A program made the position numbers and the translations under genes. The notes below the pieces were generated by a model. The model had not been told where the DNA came from. It ran no database searches and worked only from the letters and a program-made list of their open reading frames with translations. Positions 1 through 11,635 of a stretch of 11,845 nucleotides of DNA are shown here, one piece after another. This DNA is from Lachnospiraceae bacterium (GTDB lineage: Bacteria; Bacillota_A; Clostridia; Lachnospirales; Lachnospiraceae), in contig JAFXWR010000168.1 in NCBI GenBank assembly GCA_017542725.1, forward strand, positions 1 through 11,845. The letters run 5' to 3'. The first letter of the stretch is position 1. Every line of letters begins with the position of its first letter.

Positions 1-1421
1 ATATAATAAACTTTAGTAGTTTGAAAATTACTTAAGTCAATGTTTTGTATGCTGCTACAATTCATAAACATTGAACCAATATTTGTCACATTAGTTGTAT
101 TAATTGTTCCAAAATTAACATTTGTCAACTTCGTACAATCTTTAAACATACTTGACATATTTGTTACTTTAACAAAATCAAGTGTACTTAAGTTAATTTC
201 AGTTAAATTACTACATCCCTCAAAAAATGATGACATATCTGTAACTTTACTTATATAAAGCCCATCAAGGTTAATAGAAGTTAGTCCACTACATCCTTTT
301 ACGATATTTTTCATATTTGAAGATTGAACTTTTGTGGTATTAAATCCACTCAAATCAAGGTAGGTTAAACTTCTACAATTTTGAAACATATTCGCGACAT
401 TTGTACAGTTACTCGTTTCAATATTTTCAAAATTACTTATAGTAGCTAGATTATAAAAATTATTAAACCAAGAATTACATGTTGTTGGACTTATAACATC
501 TTCTATAACTATTTTTATAATTTTGCTCTTTTTAGTTTGGGTATTTAATGTTGAAGAACTATAGCTTCCTTGTGTTAATCCTGTTTGTGCTGTGCTTCTT
601 AAATGTAAAATAGTGTCATCATCAGTTAGATAATAATATGTTTTGGCAGCACCGAATAGATTATTACTCGGATTTTTCAACAAACTTTCTAAGTCTACAA
701 ATGTTTCACTAACACTTGCTTTATCTTCATTTTGATTTTCTTCTTGATTCTCTTCCTCATCATTTTTACTTGGTTCACTCTCACTAGCAACAACATTTGA
801 TTGATTATCTTTACTTGGTTCTACTATGGTTGTTGAATTAGTTGAGTCAGTAGTACTGGTAGACTCCTCAGTTGTTTCACTAGATTCTACAGTTGTTTCA
901 CTTGACTCTAATGTAGCGTTGGCTGTATCTGTTGAGTCAGTTGGGTAAGTTTGATTAGTTTCTTCATTCTTTGAAGAACTTTCGTTTTCTTTTGGTTCTT
1001 TGCTTTCTCCGCCATTTTCATTGTTGCCTTCGCTAGATTGATTACTACCATTATTTCCATCATTCTCTAGTTCCCCTTTGGTAGAGTCATCTCCCTCTTC
1101 ACCAAAACCTTCACCCTCTGGTTCTTCAGCATTGCCAATGTCATTACCATCATCACTCTCAGGGTCAACTATATTTCCTCCATTATCATCTCCATCATTT
1201 TGGCCGTAAGAAGCTTTAGTGTATTCAACACTCGTTTTACTTGTGCCCATGATTTCAGATGCTTTCTCTTCACCAAGGTCAGTTTTTAACTGCTCGGCAA
1301 TCTTTGACTGACCGGTGTCTCCAGTCTTATCAACCTCATTTGCAAAAACTGCAGCATGTGGTAAGGTCATATTGATAACCATACTCACAATTAGAATTAT
1401 TGACAACCTTCTCTTATTCAT
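1..1421 (-). CDS. Secreted BspA/DUF285-type leucine-rich-repeat surface protein, C-terminus outside window
   Basis: The frame is open from ATG at 1421 to the window edge (473 codons). Residues 1-27 form a signal peptide (MNKRR, hydrophobic core, AVFA then NE) cut by signal peptidase I; there is no lipobox cysteine. Residues about 70-240 are a low-complexity stalk rich in Asp/Glu/Asn/Ser/Thr. Residues about 245-335 (from LFGAAKTYYL) resemble the lead-in of DUF285 proteins. From about residue 338 at least five repeats of about 25 residues follow the pattern NMSSMFKDCTKLTNVNF, the DUF285 form of BspA leucine-rich repeats. Such proteins are exported and in characterised cases bind host matrix or other bacteria; that role is inferred here. 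The wall anchor, if any, lies beyond the window. A GGGGG ribosome site sits 5 nt before the start. Expression is probably gated by the attenuator leader upstream (1486-1674). Confidence 0.88.
   Translation of the reverse strand, partial: MNKRRLSIILIVSMVINMTLPHAAVFANEVDKTGDTGQSKIAEQLKTDLGEEKASEIMGTSKTSVEYTKASYGQNDGDDNGGNIVDPESDDGNDIGNAEEPEGEGFGEEGDDSTKGELENDGNNGSNQSSEGNNENGGESKEPKENESSSKNEETNQTYPTDSTDTANATLESSETTVESSETTEESTSTTDSTNSTTIVEPSKDNQSNVVASESEPSKNDEEENQEENQNEDKASVSETFVDLESLLKNPSNNLFGAAKTYYYLTDDDTILHLRSTAQTGLTQGSYSSSTLNTQTKKSKIIKIVIEDVISPTTCNSWFNNFYNLATISNFENIETSNCTNVANMFQNCRSLTYLDLSGFNTTKVQSSNMKNIVKGCSGLTSINLDGLYISKVTDMSSFFEGCSNLTEINLSTLDFVKVTNMSSMFKDCTKLTNVNFGTINTTNVTNIGSMFMNCSSIQNIDLSNFQTTKVYY
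869..910. repeat. Two tandem 21-bp units in the stalk-coding region
   Basis: Units at 869-889 and 890-910 are identical at 19 of 21 positions and encode, on the minus strand, consecutive ESSETTV/E-type heptapeptides in the Ser/Thr-rich stalk. The unit length is a multiple of three, so copy changes would alter stalk length without breaking the frame. Confidence 0.75.
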
Positions 1422-1431: not shown

Positions 1432-1485
1432 AATATTATTATATATAAATTCAATTTATTATTTTTTAATCACTATTCTTATCCT

Positions 1486-1523
1486 AAAATAAAAATCTCG
1501 CAAGTCCATTGGACTCACGAGAT
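1486..1523 (-). terminator. Intrinsic terminator inside the LRR gene leader
   Basis: The RNA AUCUCGUGAGUCC (1523-1511), loop AAU, GGACUUGCGAGAU (1507-1495) forms a 13-bp stem with two G-U pairs, followed by UUUUAUUUU. The two G-U pairs become C-A mismatches on the plus strand and no T tract follows there, so it acts only on minus-strand transcripts. It ends about 65 nt before the LRR start codon, so it controls that gene and does not end the preceding operon. Confidence 0.85.
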
Positions 1524-1674
1524 GAAAATTGTGAGCCCTTGTTTATGAGACAAGATACTAATAATCTACCAGAGATATTGTAAAGCTCACATTTTTACCA
1601 AAATGTGACTCTGGTAAACCAGTACACAAATAGACGGAGCTTTCGCCCCAATAAAAAATTAGTTTCTTTCTCGC
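1486..1674 (-). promoter_or_regulatory. Structured 5' leader of the LRR gene: candidate riboswitch or attenuator, class unassigned
   Basis: In RNA order (high to low coordinates) the leader shows these elements. (1) A GNRA hairpin, GGGGC-GAAA-GCUCC, at 1649-1636. (2) A long-range 10-bp stem, UUUACCAGAG (1618-1609) with CUCUGGUAGA (1574-1565), one G-U pair. (3) Inside it, a perfect 8-bp hairpin CACAUUUU-GGUA-AAAAUGUG (1607-1588). (4) A short CUUGU/ACAAG hairpin (1554-1538). (5) GGGCUCAC (1538-1531), which can pair either with GUGAGUCC (1518-1511), forming an antiterminator, or with GUGAGC (1590-1585), freeing the terminator. (6) The terminator at 1523-1486. Mutually exclusive pairings ahead of a terminator are the hallmark of a transcription-attenuating riboswitch or protein/RNA-controlled attenuator. 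It does not match the conserved cores I know for c-di-GMP-I/II, SAM, TPP, lysine, purine, cobalamin, FMN, glycine, T-box, ykkC or preQ1. The ligand or effector is unknown. Confidence 0.7.
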
Positions 1675-1710
1675 ACTTTTATATTACCATATTTATAACT
1701 TTTCCGCAAC
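1674..1710 (-). promoter_or_regulatory. Extended -10 promoter of the LRR leader
   Basis: -35-like TTGCGG (1709-1704), 17-nt spacer, and -10 TAATAT (1686-1681) with an upstream TG forming TGGTAATAT. Expected transcript start is about 1674. It is identical at 31 of 37 positions to the promoter at 2923-2959 and directly abuts the T tract of the terminator at 1711-1739. Confidence 0.6.
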
Positions 1711-4441: not shown

Positions 4442-5851
4442 TTATGATATTGTTATATCTCCAAGTGATGCGTAGTAATATGCATTTGTTGCATTGATTA
4501 AGTTATATTTTGCAACTTTTACTTGAAGTTTATTTGATAAATTTTGTAATTCAAGACCTTTATACTCAAGTTCACTAACTAAATTACTATCAAACTTTCT
4601 CTTATTTGCTTCATCATTTATATCGCAAATTTCTTTCAAGTACATGCTCGAATCATACAAAAGTTTTTTTGACAGCAAATCATTATATAGATTTTCAAAT
4701 TCAGCAATAATTACATTTGAAGTATATTCTTGTCTCTTATGAAATAACTCTTCACCAGTACTTTGTGGTAATCTTTTATCTCTATCACTTATTTTTATAG
4801 CATTATATGTAGAATTACTTGTGTAAGCCCTTGTCTTATCATCTTCAAAATTTATGCTAGAAATATAATTTAAATCTATAACTGGTTCAACAAACACTAA
4901 CTTATCTATGTCGCCAACCTTATATCCAAGATTTATAGCTACCTGCTCTTTTACATTTTTAAGTGTTGTCTCAGTAGCCTTAAACGAATTCTTAGCGTTT
5001 TCATATTGATCCATGCTTGTCGATACATCTAGAGCCGTCGCCAACCCCAATTCATAATTCTTTTTCTTCAGTAAATACATATCATAATACAAATTCGTTT
5101 GTTTTTCAAGTATTTCCGCATAGTCTGAAAGCTGTAAATATGTAAGGACTACCGAGGTTATTGCTTTTGTAACCGACCTTCTCGCAAATGCTACTTTATT
5201 ATTATTATCAACATTTCCTATATTGTATAATGCATTATTTAACCCTAGCATTCTTTTCGTGCTATTTATAGAAGAATTTGTAGTATTATATGTTATTTTT
5301 GTAGTAGTATACATATTCTTATATGCATTTATTTGAGCCGTAAAACTATCATATTTCTTTTTATAATCTGGGTCTGTCTTATCTAAAACATTTCTTTGGT
5401 AGGTTAAACTTTTAATTGTGTCATTAAAAGTAGTCATCAAATCAAAAATCTCTTCAGTATACTGTCTATAATCATATAGTAATGTGTCGTTGCCACCTCT
5501 AGCATAAAATGACATCCAATATGAACTCTCAGCACCAGATTTAATGTTTGTATATGTTGGAGAAAAATATTTTATCCTTGATTCTATAGTATTTAAGTCA
5601 ACGACAAAATTGTCTACACTATCATACTCTTCTTTATTTATCCCTGGTTTAACCGGGTTAAGTGGATTGTATTCTTCATATGGGTCTTTATGTACAATAG
5701 TGGCTTCAGAAATACTATTTTTTTCTTCAGCAACTGGCACATCAACTTCTCCCTCAAATGGATCAGTCTTTCTTGCATACGAAATACTGCCTAAAGACAT
5801 AGACATTATAAGAGAGAGAGCTATTATTTTTTTTAATACTTTATATTTCAT
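4442..5851 (-). CDS. TolC-family-like secreted protein, second copy
   Basis: Residues 1-26 are a signal peptide (MKYKVLKK, hydrophobic core, SISYA then RK). A linker of about 50 residues rich in Asp/Glu/Pro follows. The body is mostly helical and contains the two TolC/OEP-type half-repeats: NYELGLATALDVSTSMDQYE (about 265-285) and KRKFDSNLVSELEYKGLELQ (near 425). Each has the Y/F-x-x-G/S-x-A/V helical turn that starts an outer-membrane-efflux-protein hairpin. At 469 residues it is of normal TolC length. It starts 3 nt after the stop of the other TolC-like gene with no good ribosome site (only GGGG 18 nt upstream), so it is likely translated by coupling. It is a diverged paralogue of its neighbour. 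If the cell has one membrane, it cannot be an outer-membrane channel and may act as an extracytoplasmic extension of the pump. Confidence 0.82.
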   Translation of the reverse strand: MKYKVLKKIIALSLIMSMSLGSISYARKTDPFEGEVDVPVAEEKNSISEATIVHKDPYEEYNPLNPVKPGINKEEYDSVDNFVVDLNTIESRIKYFSPTYTNIKSGAESSYWMSFYARGGNDTLLYDYRQYTEEIFDLMTTFNDTIKSLTYQRNVLDKTDPDYKKKYDSFTAQINAYKNMYTTTKITYNTTNSSINSTKRMLGLNNALYNIGNVDNNNKVAFARRSVTKAITSVVLTYLQLSDYAEILEKQTNLYYDMYLLKKKNYELGLATALDVSTSMDQYENAKNSFKATETTLKNVKEQVAINLGYKVGDIDKLVFVEPVIDLNYISSINFEDDKTRAYTSNSTYNAIKISDRDKRLPQSTGEELFHKRQEYTSNVIIAEFENLYNDLLSKKLLYDSSMYLKEICDINDEANKRKFDSNLVSELEYKGLELQNLSNKLQVKVAKYNLINATNAYYYASLGDITIS

Positions 5852-5854
5852 AAA

Positions 5855-7036
5855 TTAGCAACTAGCAAACCCCAATACCGAATATTTATAATTTTCAACT
5901 GCAATCTTTAAATCATACTTTGCACTCTGAAGATTATTTCGCGCAATAGTCACATTATGTTCTGCTGTCAATAATTCCTTTTCACTAATGTTCCCATGCT
6001 CATATTCATTATTTGCTTTGGTTAAATTATCCTTTGCAAGATTAAGTGCAATTTCTCTATTATAATTAGTATCTACTGCATCCAAAATACTTCTATATTT
6101 ATTTTCTAAGTCATTATAAATTTTCTCAGGTGCTGATTCATATAAAATATTGAACTCATTTTTAACTTCTTCATTTCTAGCATTTTCTATCTTCCTTCTA
6201 TAAATCTCTTGCTGTATATTATGAGCAAGTGCCATTTGATAATCATTGTTTAGGTTAATTGTATCAATATTTAAATCTATACTTAAATCTATAGGAGTTA
6301 TATATATATCATCACTTGAAGTTTTACCACAGTTCAACAAAAGCTTTCTCTTATAAGTTTTCTGAGCCGACTCTGCAGATATTAGTGCTGACTCTGCATC
6401 AACAACTGCTTTTTTTGCTGTAAGTAAATCAACCTGTGTACCACTTCCATATTTGAGGGCATTCTCAGCCTTTTCTTGTCCTCTCTTAGCTTCTTTTATA
6501 TTGTCTTCAGCATTTAATAATTCAAAAGCACTTTTTTGGTAATTTATATCCAAGATTTTTGTCGATAATACTAATTGCATCTCTGCAAGATAGTTTGCCA
6601 AGAAATCTGTATAAGAGTCACTCGCACTCTTATCTGCTTGAATCTGCATTGCTCTACCCTGAGCCATCATCATACCTTCCTGAAGTTCTGAATCCTGTGA
6701 ACTTGCAGCATCATATAGTCTATCAGCAGCATCCTGATACTCTTCATATACATCCTGCGAAGATTTATTATTTCTCCATGAATTCCAATTATTAAGTATC
6801 TCAGGATTATACAAGTGAATCATATCTTCTATATCATTATAATTCACAATTTTACCTTTTAATTCATCTTTTCTTTCATCCGAATATATCTTATTGATGT
6901 GCGATTGAGGTGTCAATTCGTTAAAATACTCTATAATCCCCAACTCAGCAAATGAATTGAAAGTTAATAATATAGAAAATAATATTGATATAAATTTTAC
7001 CCACTTACTTTTTATCATTTTTTCTTCTCTCAGCAT
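5855..7036 (-). CDS. TolC-family-like secreted protein, first copy
   Basis: A signal peptide (IKSKWVKFISILFSILLTFNSFA) leads a helical protein of 393 residues. Two OEP-type coiled-coil repeats are clear: NALKYGSGTQVDLLTAKKAV with the following Ala/Glu-rich helix (about residues 195-230), and NNEYEHGNISEKELLTAEHN (about 345-365). It is shorter than typical TolC (about 430-490) and ends VLGFASC. The ATG at 7036 overlaps the end of the permease gene by 32 nt and has AAAGGGA 8-9 nt upstream; the internal ATG at 7018 gives a cleaner signal peptide and could be the real start. The family forms trimeric export ducts with RND pumps in diderm bacteria. The substrate cannot be read from the sequence. 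Confidence 0.82.
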   Translation of the reverse strand: MLREEKMIKSKWVKFISILFSILLTFNSFAELGIIEYFNELTPQSHINKIYSDERKDELKGKIVNYNDIEDMIHLYNPEILNNWNSWRNNKSSQDVYEEYQDAADRLYDAASSQDSELQEGMMMAQGRAMQIQADKSASDSYTDFLANYLAEMQLVLSTKILDINYQKSAFELLNAEDNIKEAKRGQEKAENALKYGSGTQVDLLTAKKAVVDAESALISAESAQKTYKRKLLLNCGKTSSDDIYITPIDLSIDLNIDTINLNNDYQMALAHNIQQEIYRRKIENARNEEVKNEFNILYESAPEKIYNDLENKYRSILDAVDTNYNREIALNLAKDNLTKANNEYEHGNISEKELLTAEHNVTIARNNLQSAKYDLKIAVENYKYSVLGFASC

Positions 7037-10000
7037 TTCTTAATTCCCTTTCTCTATCTTCATCATCAACCTGAACTATAGCATCGTTTGAAATAGGTCT
7101 AAGTCTTTCAAGTGGAGTTCCTCCTCTTCTACTGAATATATAGTAATAAACTGGTAGAATGAAGAACGCCATAAGTGTTGAAGAAATAAGTCCACCAATA
7201 TCAACAACTGCTAAACCTTGTAAAACCTCACCATTTTCACCATATGCAATAGACATAGGTATCATAGAAACTATAGTTGTTAATGTTGTCATAAGTATAG
7301 GTCTAAGTCTTATTGCTCCAGATTCTACGAGTGCCCACTTTAATTCCTTTCCATCATCTAAAAATTGATTTACAGTATCTATATATAATATTCCGTTATT
7401 AACCGCCGTTCCTATAAGCATAAGCATACCAAGTAATACAACCATTGATAATTTTAAATTAACTAGCCAAAGTGCAACTATAGCTCCACTGGCAGAAAAA
7501 AGTACTGTTCCCATAACCATAAGTGAATATCTAACTGACTCGAACTGTGATGCCATAACTACAAATACTAAGAACGCTGCAATGGCAACTGCAATTCCAA
7601 GTGCCGAAAACTCTTCCACAAGCATATCATCAACTACACTTGATGCTTTCTCAACATACCTGGAATACATAGGTTCAACTATAGTTTTTTGGATTTCCTC
7701 TTTCGTCTTATCAGTTGCATACTCATTAAAATAGGTAGTTATAGTGGTTTTATATTTCTTATCATACTTTGGAATTCCGCTTGGGTTATCTTCGTAATAA
7801 ATCTTCGCTATGTCTTTAACTGTAGTCTCAACACCATTAGAACTTTTTAATGGCATATTAGAAACTTTTTCTATCGTATCATATTCGTTGTCTGCATATT
7901 CAAGATATATATTTTGTGTCTCACCATCAATGGTTTTTTCCATAACCTTTATGCCTGATAAAGTATTATATAAAAGTCCACCAACAGCCATAGGTGTAAA
8001 GCCCTCTGATGCAGCAAGTATTGGATCAATTTCAATTTTGATTCTTGGAGCCGCGTTATCAAGCGATGTAGTTATATTACCACAATCTTTTCTCTGCTCA
8101 AGCAACTTGACAACTCTGTCATTTGCTTCTTTCAAATATCTATATTCATTTGATTGCAAATATATGTCAAATTTATCATCATCCGGCATCGCAAACATAC
8201 TAACTGCAGATGTAGAATACGAACTAAGAGAAACTGTACAACTAGTAACATTTGCTAATTCATGCTTCCATTTTTTTATTATATTATTAGTGGTATCTCT
8301 TTCCCTTTTATCCTTCAAATATACAACTAATGCTTGTCCTCCCGAACTACCTGACATTGACATGCTGCTTGCACTATTTGACAAAATATAATGGTCAGTT
8401 TCAGGTTGTTTACTTACAAACTCTTCAAATTCTTTATAGATGTCATTTTTTGCATCAAAAGTAAGTCCTGGTTTTGTCACTATATCAAATCTAATCATTC
8501 CATTATCAGTATTAGCAACCAATTCTCTCTCAAATGTTCCTATAAGTGTAAATGATCCAATAAGTATAAGTGTACTTATAATTGCCACTATCCACTTATG
8601 TTTTAAAAGTTTTGGTAAATCTCTTCTATATAAATCTTGCAAGTGTCTTACAAGTCCTCCAGCTGGAGAAGAATCTTTCTCCTTTGGTTTAATTAGCACA
8701 TAAGTAAGAGGTACAACTGATATAGCAGATACATATGAAGCTAACATACAAAATACAATAGTAAAACCGAGTGGCTTAAAGAATTGTCCTGACATACCTG
8801 ACAAAAATCCAAGTGGAGCAAAAACCACCACAGTAGTAAGTGTTGAACCAAATACTGAAGAACCGATAGTTTTACTTGCCTTAAGTGCTGCAAGACAATA
8901 ATATCTTACATCATTTTTCCCTGCATACTCATCGCTCGCTCTAAAACATGCCTCAAGCACAACTATTGAGTTGTCAACCATCATACCAACTCCCAAAACC
9001 AATGCTGAAAGTGTGATGATATTAAGAGTATAACCATTCAAATACATTAACACAAAAGCCGTAAGAATTGAAAATGGAATTGATGTACCTATTATAAAAG
9101 ATGCCTTCAAATCTCCTAAGAAAAGGAAAATTATAATCATTGACAAAACTATGGCAATGATCATTGTTTCAAATACATTTTCTATAGAATGATTAACGTT
9201 ATTGGCACTATCTTCTACAATAACTGCTTCAAGATTAGGATCTGCGTCACTCAATTTTTTTAAAACTTTTTTTACCGCCTTAGACAAAGACACAGTACTT
9301 GCAGATTGGGTCTTAGTTATTGACACAACAATACACTCATGGCTATCATATCGTCCAACTTGAGTTTGTTCTTTTTTAGTTTGGTAAATATCTGCAATAT
9401 CTTCTAAATACAATGTTCTTTTATTACCAGTAATTATTGGTATTGATTTTAAAGACTCAACTGTATCATAATTAACACCACTAGACATAGATAGTTCTCT
9501 CTGACCAACTTTAACGTCGCCACCAGGAAGTGAAAAATCAGCATTTGCTATGATCTGGTTGAGAGTAGACATAGAGAGGTTATATCTTGTCATCATTTCT
9601 GGTTTCAGCTCTATCTTTACATAATTCTCTCTTCCACCAGCTATATCAACAGAAGAAACTTCACTAATCTTTTCAAGTTCCTTAACCATTGTTTCAGAAA
9701 CATAGTTATATATGTCTGTAGTAGTTTTATTTTGAACTGAAATTTTAATAGCTGGCATAGAATTTATGTCCATCTCATATATTGTAGGCTCTTGCACGTC
9801 GTCAGGGAAATCAGCTTTCACTTGGTCAACTGCTTTTTTAAGATCAGTATATGCCTGATTCATATTTTGACCATAATTATACTGTACAGCAAGTATTGAT
9901 ACATTCTCTCTTGATGTTCCTTGAAGGTGCTTCACACCTTGTAAATTATAAAGTTCATCTTCAAGTTTCTTAGTAATATTGGTATCTATATCTTCTGGCT

Positions 10001-10169
10001 GTGCACCTGGATAAACTGTAACTACTGCATACATAGGCATAGATATAGAAGGCATGAGTTCATACTGAAAACTAATTATAGATATAAATCCAAAGAAAAC
10101 GATAGAAAGCATTATAAGAAATGCTGTTACTGGTTTTCTTAAGACAAATTTTGAAAATTGATAACTCAT
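7005..10169 (-). CDS. RND efflux permease, HAE1/AcrB-like
   Basis: Full-length RND pump (1054 residues) of the inner/cytoplasmic membrane, expelling drugs or amphiphiles by proton antiport. Layout: TM1 (about 12-32) with FQYELMPSISMP after it, first porter loop (35-330), TM2-TM6 from about 331 with GVGMMVDNSIVVLEA (394-407), TM7 near 520, second porter loop, then TM8-TM12 (about 860-1013) with GTAVNNGILYIDTVN near 920-934. Compared with AcrB, the proton-relay pair Asp407/Asp408 reads Asp399/Asn400, and the Lys940 position reads Asn924. After TM12 there is a charged cytoplasmic tail of about 40 residues. The ATG overlaps the adaptor's TAA as TAATG with GGAGG 7 nt upstream, giving tight coupling. 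The exact substrate is unknown. Confidence 0.95.
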   Translation of the reverse strand: MSYQFSKFVLRKPVTAFLIMLSIVFFGFISIISFQYELMPSISMPMYAVVTVYPGAQPEDIDTNITKKLEDELYNLQGVKHLQGTSRENVSILAVQYNYGQNMNQAYTDLKKAVDQVKADFPDDVQEPTIYEMDINSMPAIKISVQNKTTTDIYNYVSETMVKELEKISEVSSVDIAGGRENYVKIELKPEMMTRYNLSMSTLNQIIANADFSLPGGDVKVGQRELSMSSGVNYDTVESLKSIPIITGNKRTLYLEDIADIYQTKKEQTQVGRYDSHECIVVSITKTQSASTVSLSKAVKKVLKKLSDADPNLEAVIVEDSANNVNHSIENVFETMIIAIVLSMIIIFLFLGDLKASFIIGTSIPFSILTAFVLMYLNGYTLNIITLSALVLGVGMMVDNSIVVLEACFRASDEYAGKNDVRYYCLAALKASKTIGSSVFGSTLTTVVVFAPLGFLSGMSGQFFKPLGFTIVFCMLASYVSAISVVPLTYVLIKPKEKDSSPAGGLVRHLQDLYRRDLPKLLKHKWIVAIISTLILIGSFTLIGTFERELVANTDNGMIRFDIVTKPGLTFDAKNDIYKEFEEFVSKQPETDHYILSNSASSMSMSGSSGGQALVVYLKDKRERDTTNNIIKKWKHELANVTSCTVSLSSYSTSAVSMFAMPDDDKFDIYLQSNEYRYLKEANDRVVKLLEQRKDCGNITTSLDNAAPRIKIEIDPILAASEGFTPMAVGGLLYNTLSGIKVMEKTIDGETQNIYLEYADNEYDTIEKVSNMPLKSSNGVETTVKDIAKIYYEDNPSGIPKYDKKYKTTITTYFNEYATDKTKEEIQKTIVEPMYSRYVEKASSVVDDMLVEEFSALGIAVAIAAFLVFVVMASQFESVRYSLMVMGTVLFSASGAIVALWLVNLKLSMVVLLGMLMLIGTAVNNGILYIDTVNQFLDDGKELKWALVESGAIRLRPILMTTLTTIVSMIPMSIAYGENGEVLQGLAVVDIGGLISSTLMAFFILPVYYYIFSRRGGTPLERLRPISNDAIVQVDDEDRERELRNAERRKNDKK

Positions 10170-11635
10170 TATTTAACCTCCGTTATCTTCACAGAGTTAG
10201 TGTCAATGCTTTTATCTGCAAACGAAGGTTGGAATTTCATGCTATCTATCTCAATATCTTTTACTTCACTTTTTGTAAAAGGCTTAAACTCTTCTTCAGT
10301 TTCACTCTTTGTTGCAATTTCTTCTCTATCTGCATCTTCAACAATTTTTCCAATTAGATCACTTAATTTTTTTGAGTTGCCGTCTATAGTATCTTCACTT
10401 TCCAAAGTTTCAGTTATCTCCAACGCCTCTGTAGTTTCCTCTACTTCAACTTCAGACTTACTTGCTATCTTTCTATTTTTATTTGCCATTTCTTCAATTT
10501 TTTCTCTAGAAACAGACTCAATATATACTTCATCTTCAACTTTTTCATCTCTTACAACATTTACAGTTGCACCTTCAGCTAAATCGTTGTTCCAAGTTGA
10601 TACAATCTTAAGACTTCTATCAAGATCAGTTAAAACCTCTGTATAGTCCTTATTTTCAATACCAACTTCAATATACTTCTTGCTAACTAGACCTTCATCA
10701 TTTACCACAAAAACATATGGCATACTAGCTTCATAATATATAATTTCATTTGGCAACAAATTTACATTTTTCTTTGTGATATAAGGAAATGTAACTTTTG
10801 CCATAACACCTGATGCAAACGAATTTTCAGAAGTTATGACAGCTTTTACATTAAATAATCCATTTTGAGTATTTATCAAGTTGGAAATATTTGATATATA
10901 ACCATTATATGTCTTCCCTGCTTTCTCAATAGTGACAGGGTCATTTATCTTTATGCCATCAAGAACTCTTTCTGTAACTCCGAAATTAATCTCCTTTGCT
11001 CCTTCTGAAGTAATATAACAAAGCACTGTACCCTGATTGATTGCAGTATTAATAGTCATATTAGTATTTTCTACAACTCCATCATCTACGGCAACTGGTA
11101 TTGAATACTCCATCTTTGTATCATATGCGAGCTTATATCCATCATACTGAGCTTTTACTGACTCAAAACTTTGGAGCGAAATATCACCTGCTTTATATAA
11201 CTTTTGCATTCTTTCATAACTGCTTCTTGCAGTATCGTATTGTATGAATGCCGCTTCAATTTCTTTAGAAGCATCTATCTCACATATCGGATCACCTTTT
11301 TTAACATAATCACCATTTTTAACATATATATTTTTTATGTCTCCACCAACTTTAGCTACTACATAGTATGTATCTGTTGGCAAAATATTTCCCATGACAG
11401 ACACATCTTTTGATATGCTTCCTCTTCTTATGTGTGTGACGTTTACTGCTGGCACTGCATTGAAATCAACATCTTTCTTAAATGTCAATCTCTTAAACAC
11501 CATAAATCCAACCGAGAATATGATAATCAAAATAATTATAGCATATACAATCTTCCCACCTGTGTTTTTTACAGTCTTAAGCATGTTTTTATTTTTGCTT
11601 TCCATCTCTTCATTGTTTTCAAATTGATTTTCCAT
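10169..11635 (-). CDS. RND adaptor (membrane-fusion protein, HlyD/AcrA-like) with acidic C-terminal tail
   Basis: Periplasmic-type adaptor that links the permease to its outer partner. It is anchored by one membrane helix (about 29-48) and has no lipobox. The first lipoyl half is VGGDIKNIYVKNGDYVKKGDPICEID (96-121), then a short alpha-hairpin (about 123-172), the second lipoyl half SIPVAVDDGVVENTNM with INQGTVLCYIT (178-209), a beta-barrel (about 214-285) and a membrane-proximal domain (about 290-362). Residues 363-488 are an extra, highly acidic, low-complexity tail rich in Glu, Asp, Ser and Thr. GAGGGG lies 8 nt before ATG 11635. The stop overlaps the permease start. The hairpin is short, as in adaptors that do not span a deep periplasm. 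Confidence 0.92.
   Translation of the reverse strand: MENQFENNEEMESKNKNMLKTVKNTGGKIVYAIIILIIIFSVGFMVFKRLTFKKDVDFNAVPAVNVTHIRRGSISKDVSVMGNILPTDTYYVVAKVGGDIKNIYVKNGDYVKKGDPICEIDASKEIEAAFIQYDTARSSYERMQKLYKAGDISLQSFESVKAQYDGYKLAYDTKMEYSIPVAVDDGVVENTNMTINTAINQGTVLCYITSEGAKEINFGVTERVLDGIKINDPVTIEKAGKTYNGYISNISNLINTQNGLFNVKAVITSENSFASGVMAKVTFPYITKKNVNLLPNEIIYYEASMPYVFVVNDEGLVSKKYIEVGIENKDYTEVLTDLDRSLKIVSTWNNDLAEGATVNVVRDEKVEDEVYIESVSREKIEEMANKNRKIASKSEVEVEETTEALEITETLESEDTIDGNSKKLSDLIGKIVEDADREEIATKSETEEEFKPFTKSEVKDIEIDSMKFQPSFADKSIDTNSVKITEVK

Follow-up and report, generated by a model that had tools for sequence, protein, structure and literature searches.

Known from Firmicutes are protein-controlled attenuators and riboswitches of the terminator type, among them the trp/TRAP and pyr systems and the purine riboswitches. 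T-box leaders, also from Firmicutes, rely on the mutual exclusivity of an antiterminator and a terminator. In type III toxin-antitoxin loci such as ToxIN, which are linked to phage defence, a structured RNA and a terminator precede a gene. We analyzed the window, i.e., the whole stretch of 11,845 nucleotides of contig JAFXWR010000168.1 from a Lachnospiraceae bacterium. Its minus strand carries, at 1674-1485, a structured leader ahead of a gene for a leucine-rich repeat (LRR) surface protein. The leader belongs to a large family of structured RNAs in uncultured Clostridia that has apparently not been described before. Judged from sequence, the members probably act in cis as transcription attenuators by means of mutually exclusive pairings of one segment, S2, a reading to which we give a probability of about 80%.

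The original prediction had recognized no established riboswitch class in the leader, and a scan of 1420-1720 with Rfam 15 agreed, giving four matches with a best score of 18.3 bits against a cut-off of 100. The whole-window scan returned no match on the leader up to an E value of 10, and the T-box family was absent among the window matches within the same limit. Scans of related copies (15 loci and 17 loci) yielded nothing at threshold over an element. Full-text literature searches found no description of such an RNA; supplements lay outside their scope and surveys hold many unnamed motifs, so that an earlier sighting as an unnamed motif in survey supplements is possible. In word searches of the main texts of PMC11109978 and PMC8632094, neither "restriction" nor "leucine-rich" occurred.

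Architecture of the window leader

The leader and its surroundings were divided into the following parts.

1681..1709, minus strand: promoter, TTGCGG (1709-1704), 17-nt spacer and TAATAT (1686-1681), read from the sequence
1658..1674, minus strand: 5' strand of stem P1 (16 pairs), 98.2% of alignment cells paired, two-sided changes at every pair
1636..1649, minus strand: P2, an optional GNRA hairpin of the window fold, with a predicted equivalent in 16 of 37 copies
1609..1620, minus strand: 5' strand of P3 in the window fold, helices 5 and 6 of the alignment (99.2% and 91.3% of cells paired)
1587..1608, minus strand: hairpin P4 with a GGUA loop in the window fold, helix 7 of the alignment (83.3% paired)
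1582..1590, minus strand: S1 (GUGAGCUUU), the 3' end of P4 and the joint, rival partner of S2 according to partner-swap permutations
1563..1574, minus strand: 3' strand of P3, from the window fold and the alignment
1545..1562, minus strand: 3' strand of P1, from the window fold and the alignment
1537..1555, minus strand: anti-P1 hairpin UCUUGU/ACAAGG, from copy-specific pairing energy
1524..1540, minus strand: S2 (AAGGGCUCAC) and a U-rich linker, from partner-swap permutations
1511..1518, minus strand: S3, within the 5' arm of the terminator, antiterminator partner of S2, from permutations and energy evaluation
1485..1523, minus strand: intrinsic terminator and U-run, from an independent terminator scan
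3..1421, minus strand: downstream DUF285/LRR gene, secreted-type, truncated at the window end (PF03382, 2.8e-24)

Transcription is predicted to start near 1674. The boxes of the window promoter are too weak for the automated scan, in which it remained below detection. The segments named in the original prediction were found where it had placed them, with GGGCUCAC at 1538-1531, GUGAGUCC at 1518-1511 and GUGAGC at 1590-1585. The strong terminator that it had described was recovered by the independent scan as a 13-bp stem (1523-1495) followed by a U-run. Together with its terminator, the leader folded better than 200 of 200 shuffled sequences (z of -6.39); the part without the terminator had a z of -3.55, and one of 200 shuffles was equally good.

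The stems of the compact upstream domain proposed earlier covary, but its GNRA hairpin (P2) is variable and optional, and the outer stem P1 had been overlooked. P1 is an addition to the earlier description, as are the hairpin that competes with it and the continuation of the S1.S2 helix through P4. The two outermost pairs of P1 are weak in the window, being G-U and C-A (GCGAGA versus UCUCAU). The small hairpin CUGG-UUUA-CCAG, which had also been put forward, lacked a counterpart in the relatives inspected, unsystematically, by eye.

Elsewhere on the minus strand of the window, the promoter region (2906-2945) of a 73-aa ORF at 2684-2905 resembles the leader promoter by eye (TTGCGG, TATGGTAATAT). 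An acetyltransferase-like gene at 1949-2470 is apparently broken near 2340, as judged by eye, and an 82-aa piece of it had no Pfam match. An operon-like set at 4442-11635 comprises genes for an RND pump (ACR_tran) and an outer-membrane-efflux-type protein, together with further TolC/adaptor-like genes recognized by eye. Lachnospiraceae are usually taken to be without an outer membrane.

A covarying RNA family just upstream of gene starts

The proS gene of the window led to seven loci in metagenome-assembled genomes, several of them from ruminants, with 80-98% identity in the best segment. The leader did not adjoin proS in these relatives. A DNA search located clear homologues elsewhere in five of the seven genomes, in front of other genes. 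Covariance models were then built from 5 (R1), 25 (R2) and 35 sequences (R3). In the nearest genus examined, that of G002, they detected copies in 10, 11 and 12 of 12 genomes, respectively. The 45 rows returned by R3 consisted of 38 sense and 7 antisense rows; the latter mirrored sense copies and were removed, as were the antisense rows of R1, R2 and later searches. A local search added L194, located before a methylase gene and missed by the genus-wide model runs. The tally stands at 40 copies including L194 and the window, or 41 with G212, which belongs to another genus.

Copies were rarer in wider draws, which score few candidates per genome and therefore give only rough counts outside the genus. 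Two draws from the family matched 1 of 299 and 2 of 397 genomes (G002 and G212), and two of 392 matched in the order. One of the latter, G633, was discarded: it is a plain long hairpin in which the tail parts are missing. Among relatives of G001, 9 of 35 carried copies, all within the genus. Relatives of G212 gave 0 of 41, although G212 itself was included and had matched in another draw. Since G212 and L194 were missed in some runs, absence in these searches means little. In the class draw, 33 of 391 genomes matched, namely G002 and 32 of the 390 others, with 54 rows outside G002. About 8 of the 391 would be expected to reach an E value of 0.02 by chance, and all 54 sites were therefore fetched. 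The 32 genomes were retained because the fetched sequences carry the family-defining tail parts, a judgment made partly by eye.

With five tandem neighbors added by local search, the class set comprised 59 copies. P1 was closed (at least 5 of the first 6 pairs) in all 59, and the U-rich linker was at the scripted position in 57; the remaining likeness to the family was judged by eye. A hairpin of -6 kcal/mol or better preceded the U-run in 59 of 59 class-set and 36 of 40 genus-set copies, the other four of the genus set missing this value. Owing to a start that is one base off, L096 does not pass the simple P1 check.

The stems named in the original prediction covary in these relatives. In alignment A6 (35 rows), 93.5% of cells were paired and 37 of 40 pairs had two-sided changes. 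The values for alignment A3 (28 rows, one of them antisense) were 92.1% and 39 of 42. The covariation score of A6 was 0.639, compared with 0.157 for shuffled and at most 0.086 for slid alignments. Both alignments were fitted to the model structure, which favors it, related rows are not independent, and permutations and shuffles leave shared ancestry in place. Model-free folds of single copies agreed with the structure in most cases. The mean length was about 16 pairs for P1 and about 13 for P3, averages that include folds of L085, L086 and L109 that are not meaningful, and no correlation was found between the two lengths (-0.02).

Upstream of the RNA, a -10 box matching at five or more of six positions was present in 97 of 99 copies (about 47 in shuffles), and a -35 box matching at four or more of six in 60 (about 16 in shuffles). 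An ATG with a ribosome-binding site lay 15 to 80 nt past the U-run in 26 of 37 copies, as opposed to 1 of 35 in a mirrored control. The corresponding numbers for a second set of 62 copies (59 from the class set and 3 from the genus) were 37 and 3 of 62. In the class set, eight of 59 copies, some near contig ends, had no called gene within 300 nt, and six further copies were followed only by ORFs with a poor ribosome-binding site. Some copies may therefore be lone RNAs or relics.

Several individual loci merit description. A complete element at 6959-7083 on the plus strand of L136 is followed only by an apparent gene remnant. In L157, L158, L160, L169, L178 and L191, the spacing between tandem copies on the same strand ranges from about 100 to 930 bases, and most have unlike stems. 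A DUF3800-XI RNA (62.6 bits, above threshold) occupies 606-653 on the plus strand of L062, about 850 bases upstream of a family element.

Conserved rival pairings and a proposed model of the switch

To compare pairings, S1, S2 and S3 were excised from the copies, and the pairing of each segment with its own partner was set against that with partners from other copies in 5,000 permutations. Among 37 copies, S1 with S2 gave -12.23 for native and -9.92 for swapped partners, and S2 with S3 gave -16.4 and -11.85; none of the 5,000 permutations was as good in either case. The native value of the control pairing, S1 with S3, was reached in 1,487 of 5,000. The mutually exclusive pairings that the original prediction had drawn around GGGCUCAC are thus kept in relatives through compensatory change. 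L093, L100 and L101 illustrate this, an altered S2 being accompanied by altered partners.

Longer segments gave the same picture. S2 plus the linker paired with S1 plus the 3' strand of P4 at -14.56 versus -12.2 in 39 distinct genus-set copies (with G212) and at -15.41 versus -11.25 in 52 distinct class-set copies. For S2 with S3, the values were -16.33 versus -12.03 and -17.87 versus -13.13, respectively. No permutation of 5,000 was as good in any of these comparisons, which retained L158b despite its misplaced P1 end; the S1 with S3 controls reached the native value in 2,455 (genus set) and 575 (class set) of 5,000. The anti-P1 hairpin was also copy specific (-4.33 kcal/mol native, -2.84 kcal/mol permuted, 0 of 5,000).

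On the window transcript, the antiterminator S2.S3 was the predicted minimum for 3' ends at 1511-1502, and the terminator for ends at 1495-1490. With the same upstream fold, energy evaluation gave -59.6 kcal/mol for the terminator and -53.4 kcal/mol for the antiterminator, in Vienna energies that exclude the pseudoknot. As predicted from sequence, the conserved antiterminator excludes the terminator. With the antiterminator predicted to form earlier on the window transcript, termination should be efficient only if another segment competes for S2. S1 is the conserved rival, and we therefore infer that the S1.S2 state is OFF.

In the proposed mechanism, the nascent RNA would fold into P1-(P2)-P3-P4, and the emerging S2 would meet two mutually exclusive partners, S1 and S3. 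If S2 were to settle on S1 and then exchange strands with the 3' strand of P4, S3 would be left free and the terminator would form (OFF). S2 with its linker resembles the 5' strand of P4 extended by a sequence complementary to the S1 toehold, and the switch accordingly looks like a toehold strand exchange. If S1 and P4 were kept unavailable, S2 would take S3 during the synthesis of S3, and the terminator would be blocked (ON). Opening of P1 would favor the S1.S2 state, as the anti-P1 hairpin suggests. The polarity, the path of strand exchange and a ligand, protein or other cell state as the agent that sets the choice are what we infer from these pairings. Two structural features count against the model: the 14-bp S1.S2 helix is topologically awkward with P1 and P3 closed, and the conserved unpaired positions, by eye few and A/U-rich, offer no typical ligand pocket.

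Cargo genes, alternative readings and known systems

The original prediction had tied the RNA to control of an LRR protein. The attenuator-type leader was supported, but a tie to the LRR protein was not: the same RNA fronts many unrelated genes, and the DUF285 listing for the genus contains at least 43 distinct frames, of which only 2 directly follow a detected copy. The LRR gene of the window is one cargo among many. A gene was called behind 37 copies in the genus (34 without G212, plus L135, L137 and L194). Restriction-type genes, not always the first ORF, were behind 14 of them.

Type III methylases: L094, L095, L105, L112, L135 and L137; also a methylase behind L194
Eco57I-type: L096 and L098
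C5 methylases: L097 and L103
GmrSD-type: L106, and L084 (HNH above its cut-off, GmrSD_N below its own)
Helicase-methylase operon: L110
DUF285/LRR cargo: the window, L085 and L108

Other cargo in the genus included choline-binding proteins, lipoproteins, SPFH, a kinase operon, a nucleotidyl transferase, small proteins and unknowns. The N6_N4 methylase family, which served as the genome-wide background for restriction genes, had 28 matches in the genus, nine of them in uninterrupted frames of 500 aa or more. Seven of these nine sit in a gene or operon behind a copy, as opposed to only one (G005:C16) of the other 19; a local copy search was made at four unlinked loci. None of the 18 first genes scanned in the class set was a restriction gene, so defence cargo describes the genus rather than the whole family. 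First genes in that set encoded BspA-type LRR_5 proteins (L140, L164 and L171), copper-amine-oxidase-N domain proteins, a sugar transferase, small proteins resembling MazE/MraZ and RHH, and unknowns. Directly behind the RNA in L154, L156, L157, L160, L178, L180 and L184 lie genes for one family of small, cysteine-rich proteins. The L154 protein has 50 relatives, the named ones being only hypothetical proteins of Clostridia.

At three loci the leader was kept while the genes behind it differed. Flanks and leader are shared by G002, G001 and G006, where they are followed by a C5 methylase system (L097), an Eco57I-type system (L098) and small and secreted-type genes (L092), respectively; the other two loci are those of G003/G004 (L106/L107) and G006/G002 (L078/L079). 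Of two faecal scaffolds filed as phage that carry copies, one looks, by eye, like a bacterial chromosome and the other like an integrase-bearing element. A plasmid search for family copies found none, and leader DNA had only short matches, covering 8-14% of the query and taken as chance, in phages and plasmids. Pattern scans of IMG/VR gave three matches inside other sequence in one round and none in another. Tentatively, the family may place exchangeable accessory genes in a common regulon that acts after initiation, with restriction and other defence genes in one genus and surface, secreted or small proteins in other Clostridia. A single cell signal, for example phage attack, stress or contact, could then switch on many of these genes together, and a newcomer would be brought under control by inserting behind a leader already in place.

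What sets the choice between S1.S2 and S2.S3 may be a protein or a trans-acting RNA that acts on the leader at S1/P4 or P1, as in protein-controlled attenuators. The short motifs common to all clades and the regulon-like diversity of the cargo fit such a factor, to which we give somewhat less than an even chance. A riboswitch, in which P1-P3-P4 and the joints form an aptamer for a small molecule or ion, would explain why a covarying folded domain precedes an expression platform and why genomes hold many copies. We consider it rather unlikely, however, given the lack of a common metabolic theme in the cargo and the scarcity of conserved unpaired bases. Leader-peptide attenuation and a 6S-like role were set aside by eye and for want of Rfam matches.

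The RNA could instead be a free small RNA ended by its terminator, its position before genes being secondary. Its own promoter and terminator, the 8 of 59 class-set copies without a gene called within 300 nt and the apparent loss of the L136 gene speak for this, but the consistent distance to start codons with ribosome-binding sites stands out against the mirrored control, and a conserved antitermination pairing of S2 with S3 would be useless to such an RNA, making it improbable. That the RNA is a mobile repeat, with its pairings a side effect of copying, is very unlikely. L084 and L085 are 97% identical over 164 nt of leader, alike over little beyond the transcript and unrelated in their flanks, and L178 contains an almost exact repeat at a distance of 930 bases; in most copies, however, the stems diverge while pairing is retained, and S1, S2 and S3 change together.

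If the attenuator reading is right, the family is an orphan class of RNA switches that is widespread in uncultured gut Clostridia, precise and testable in its design and unusual in the genes that it precedes. It would offer a view on the post-initiation control of costly restriction and surface genes, and its many natural variants would be material for finding the signal. Like the trp/TRAP, pyr and purine systems, the new family combines a folded 5' domain, an exclusive antiterminator and terminator, and a gene start soon after the U-run; it differs in having no Rfam match and a diverse accessory cargo, and in an S2 that also mimics the 5' strand of P4. With T-box leaders it shares the exclusivity of antiterminator and terminator, but it has no T-box match and its cargo is unlinked to amino acids. 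With ToxIN-like loci it shares the order of RNA, terminator and gene as well as links to phage defence. However, the window leader is devoid of tandem pseudoknot repeats, and in place of the single toxin family expected directly downstream of a type III antitoxin RNA, the family is followed by many unrelated genes.
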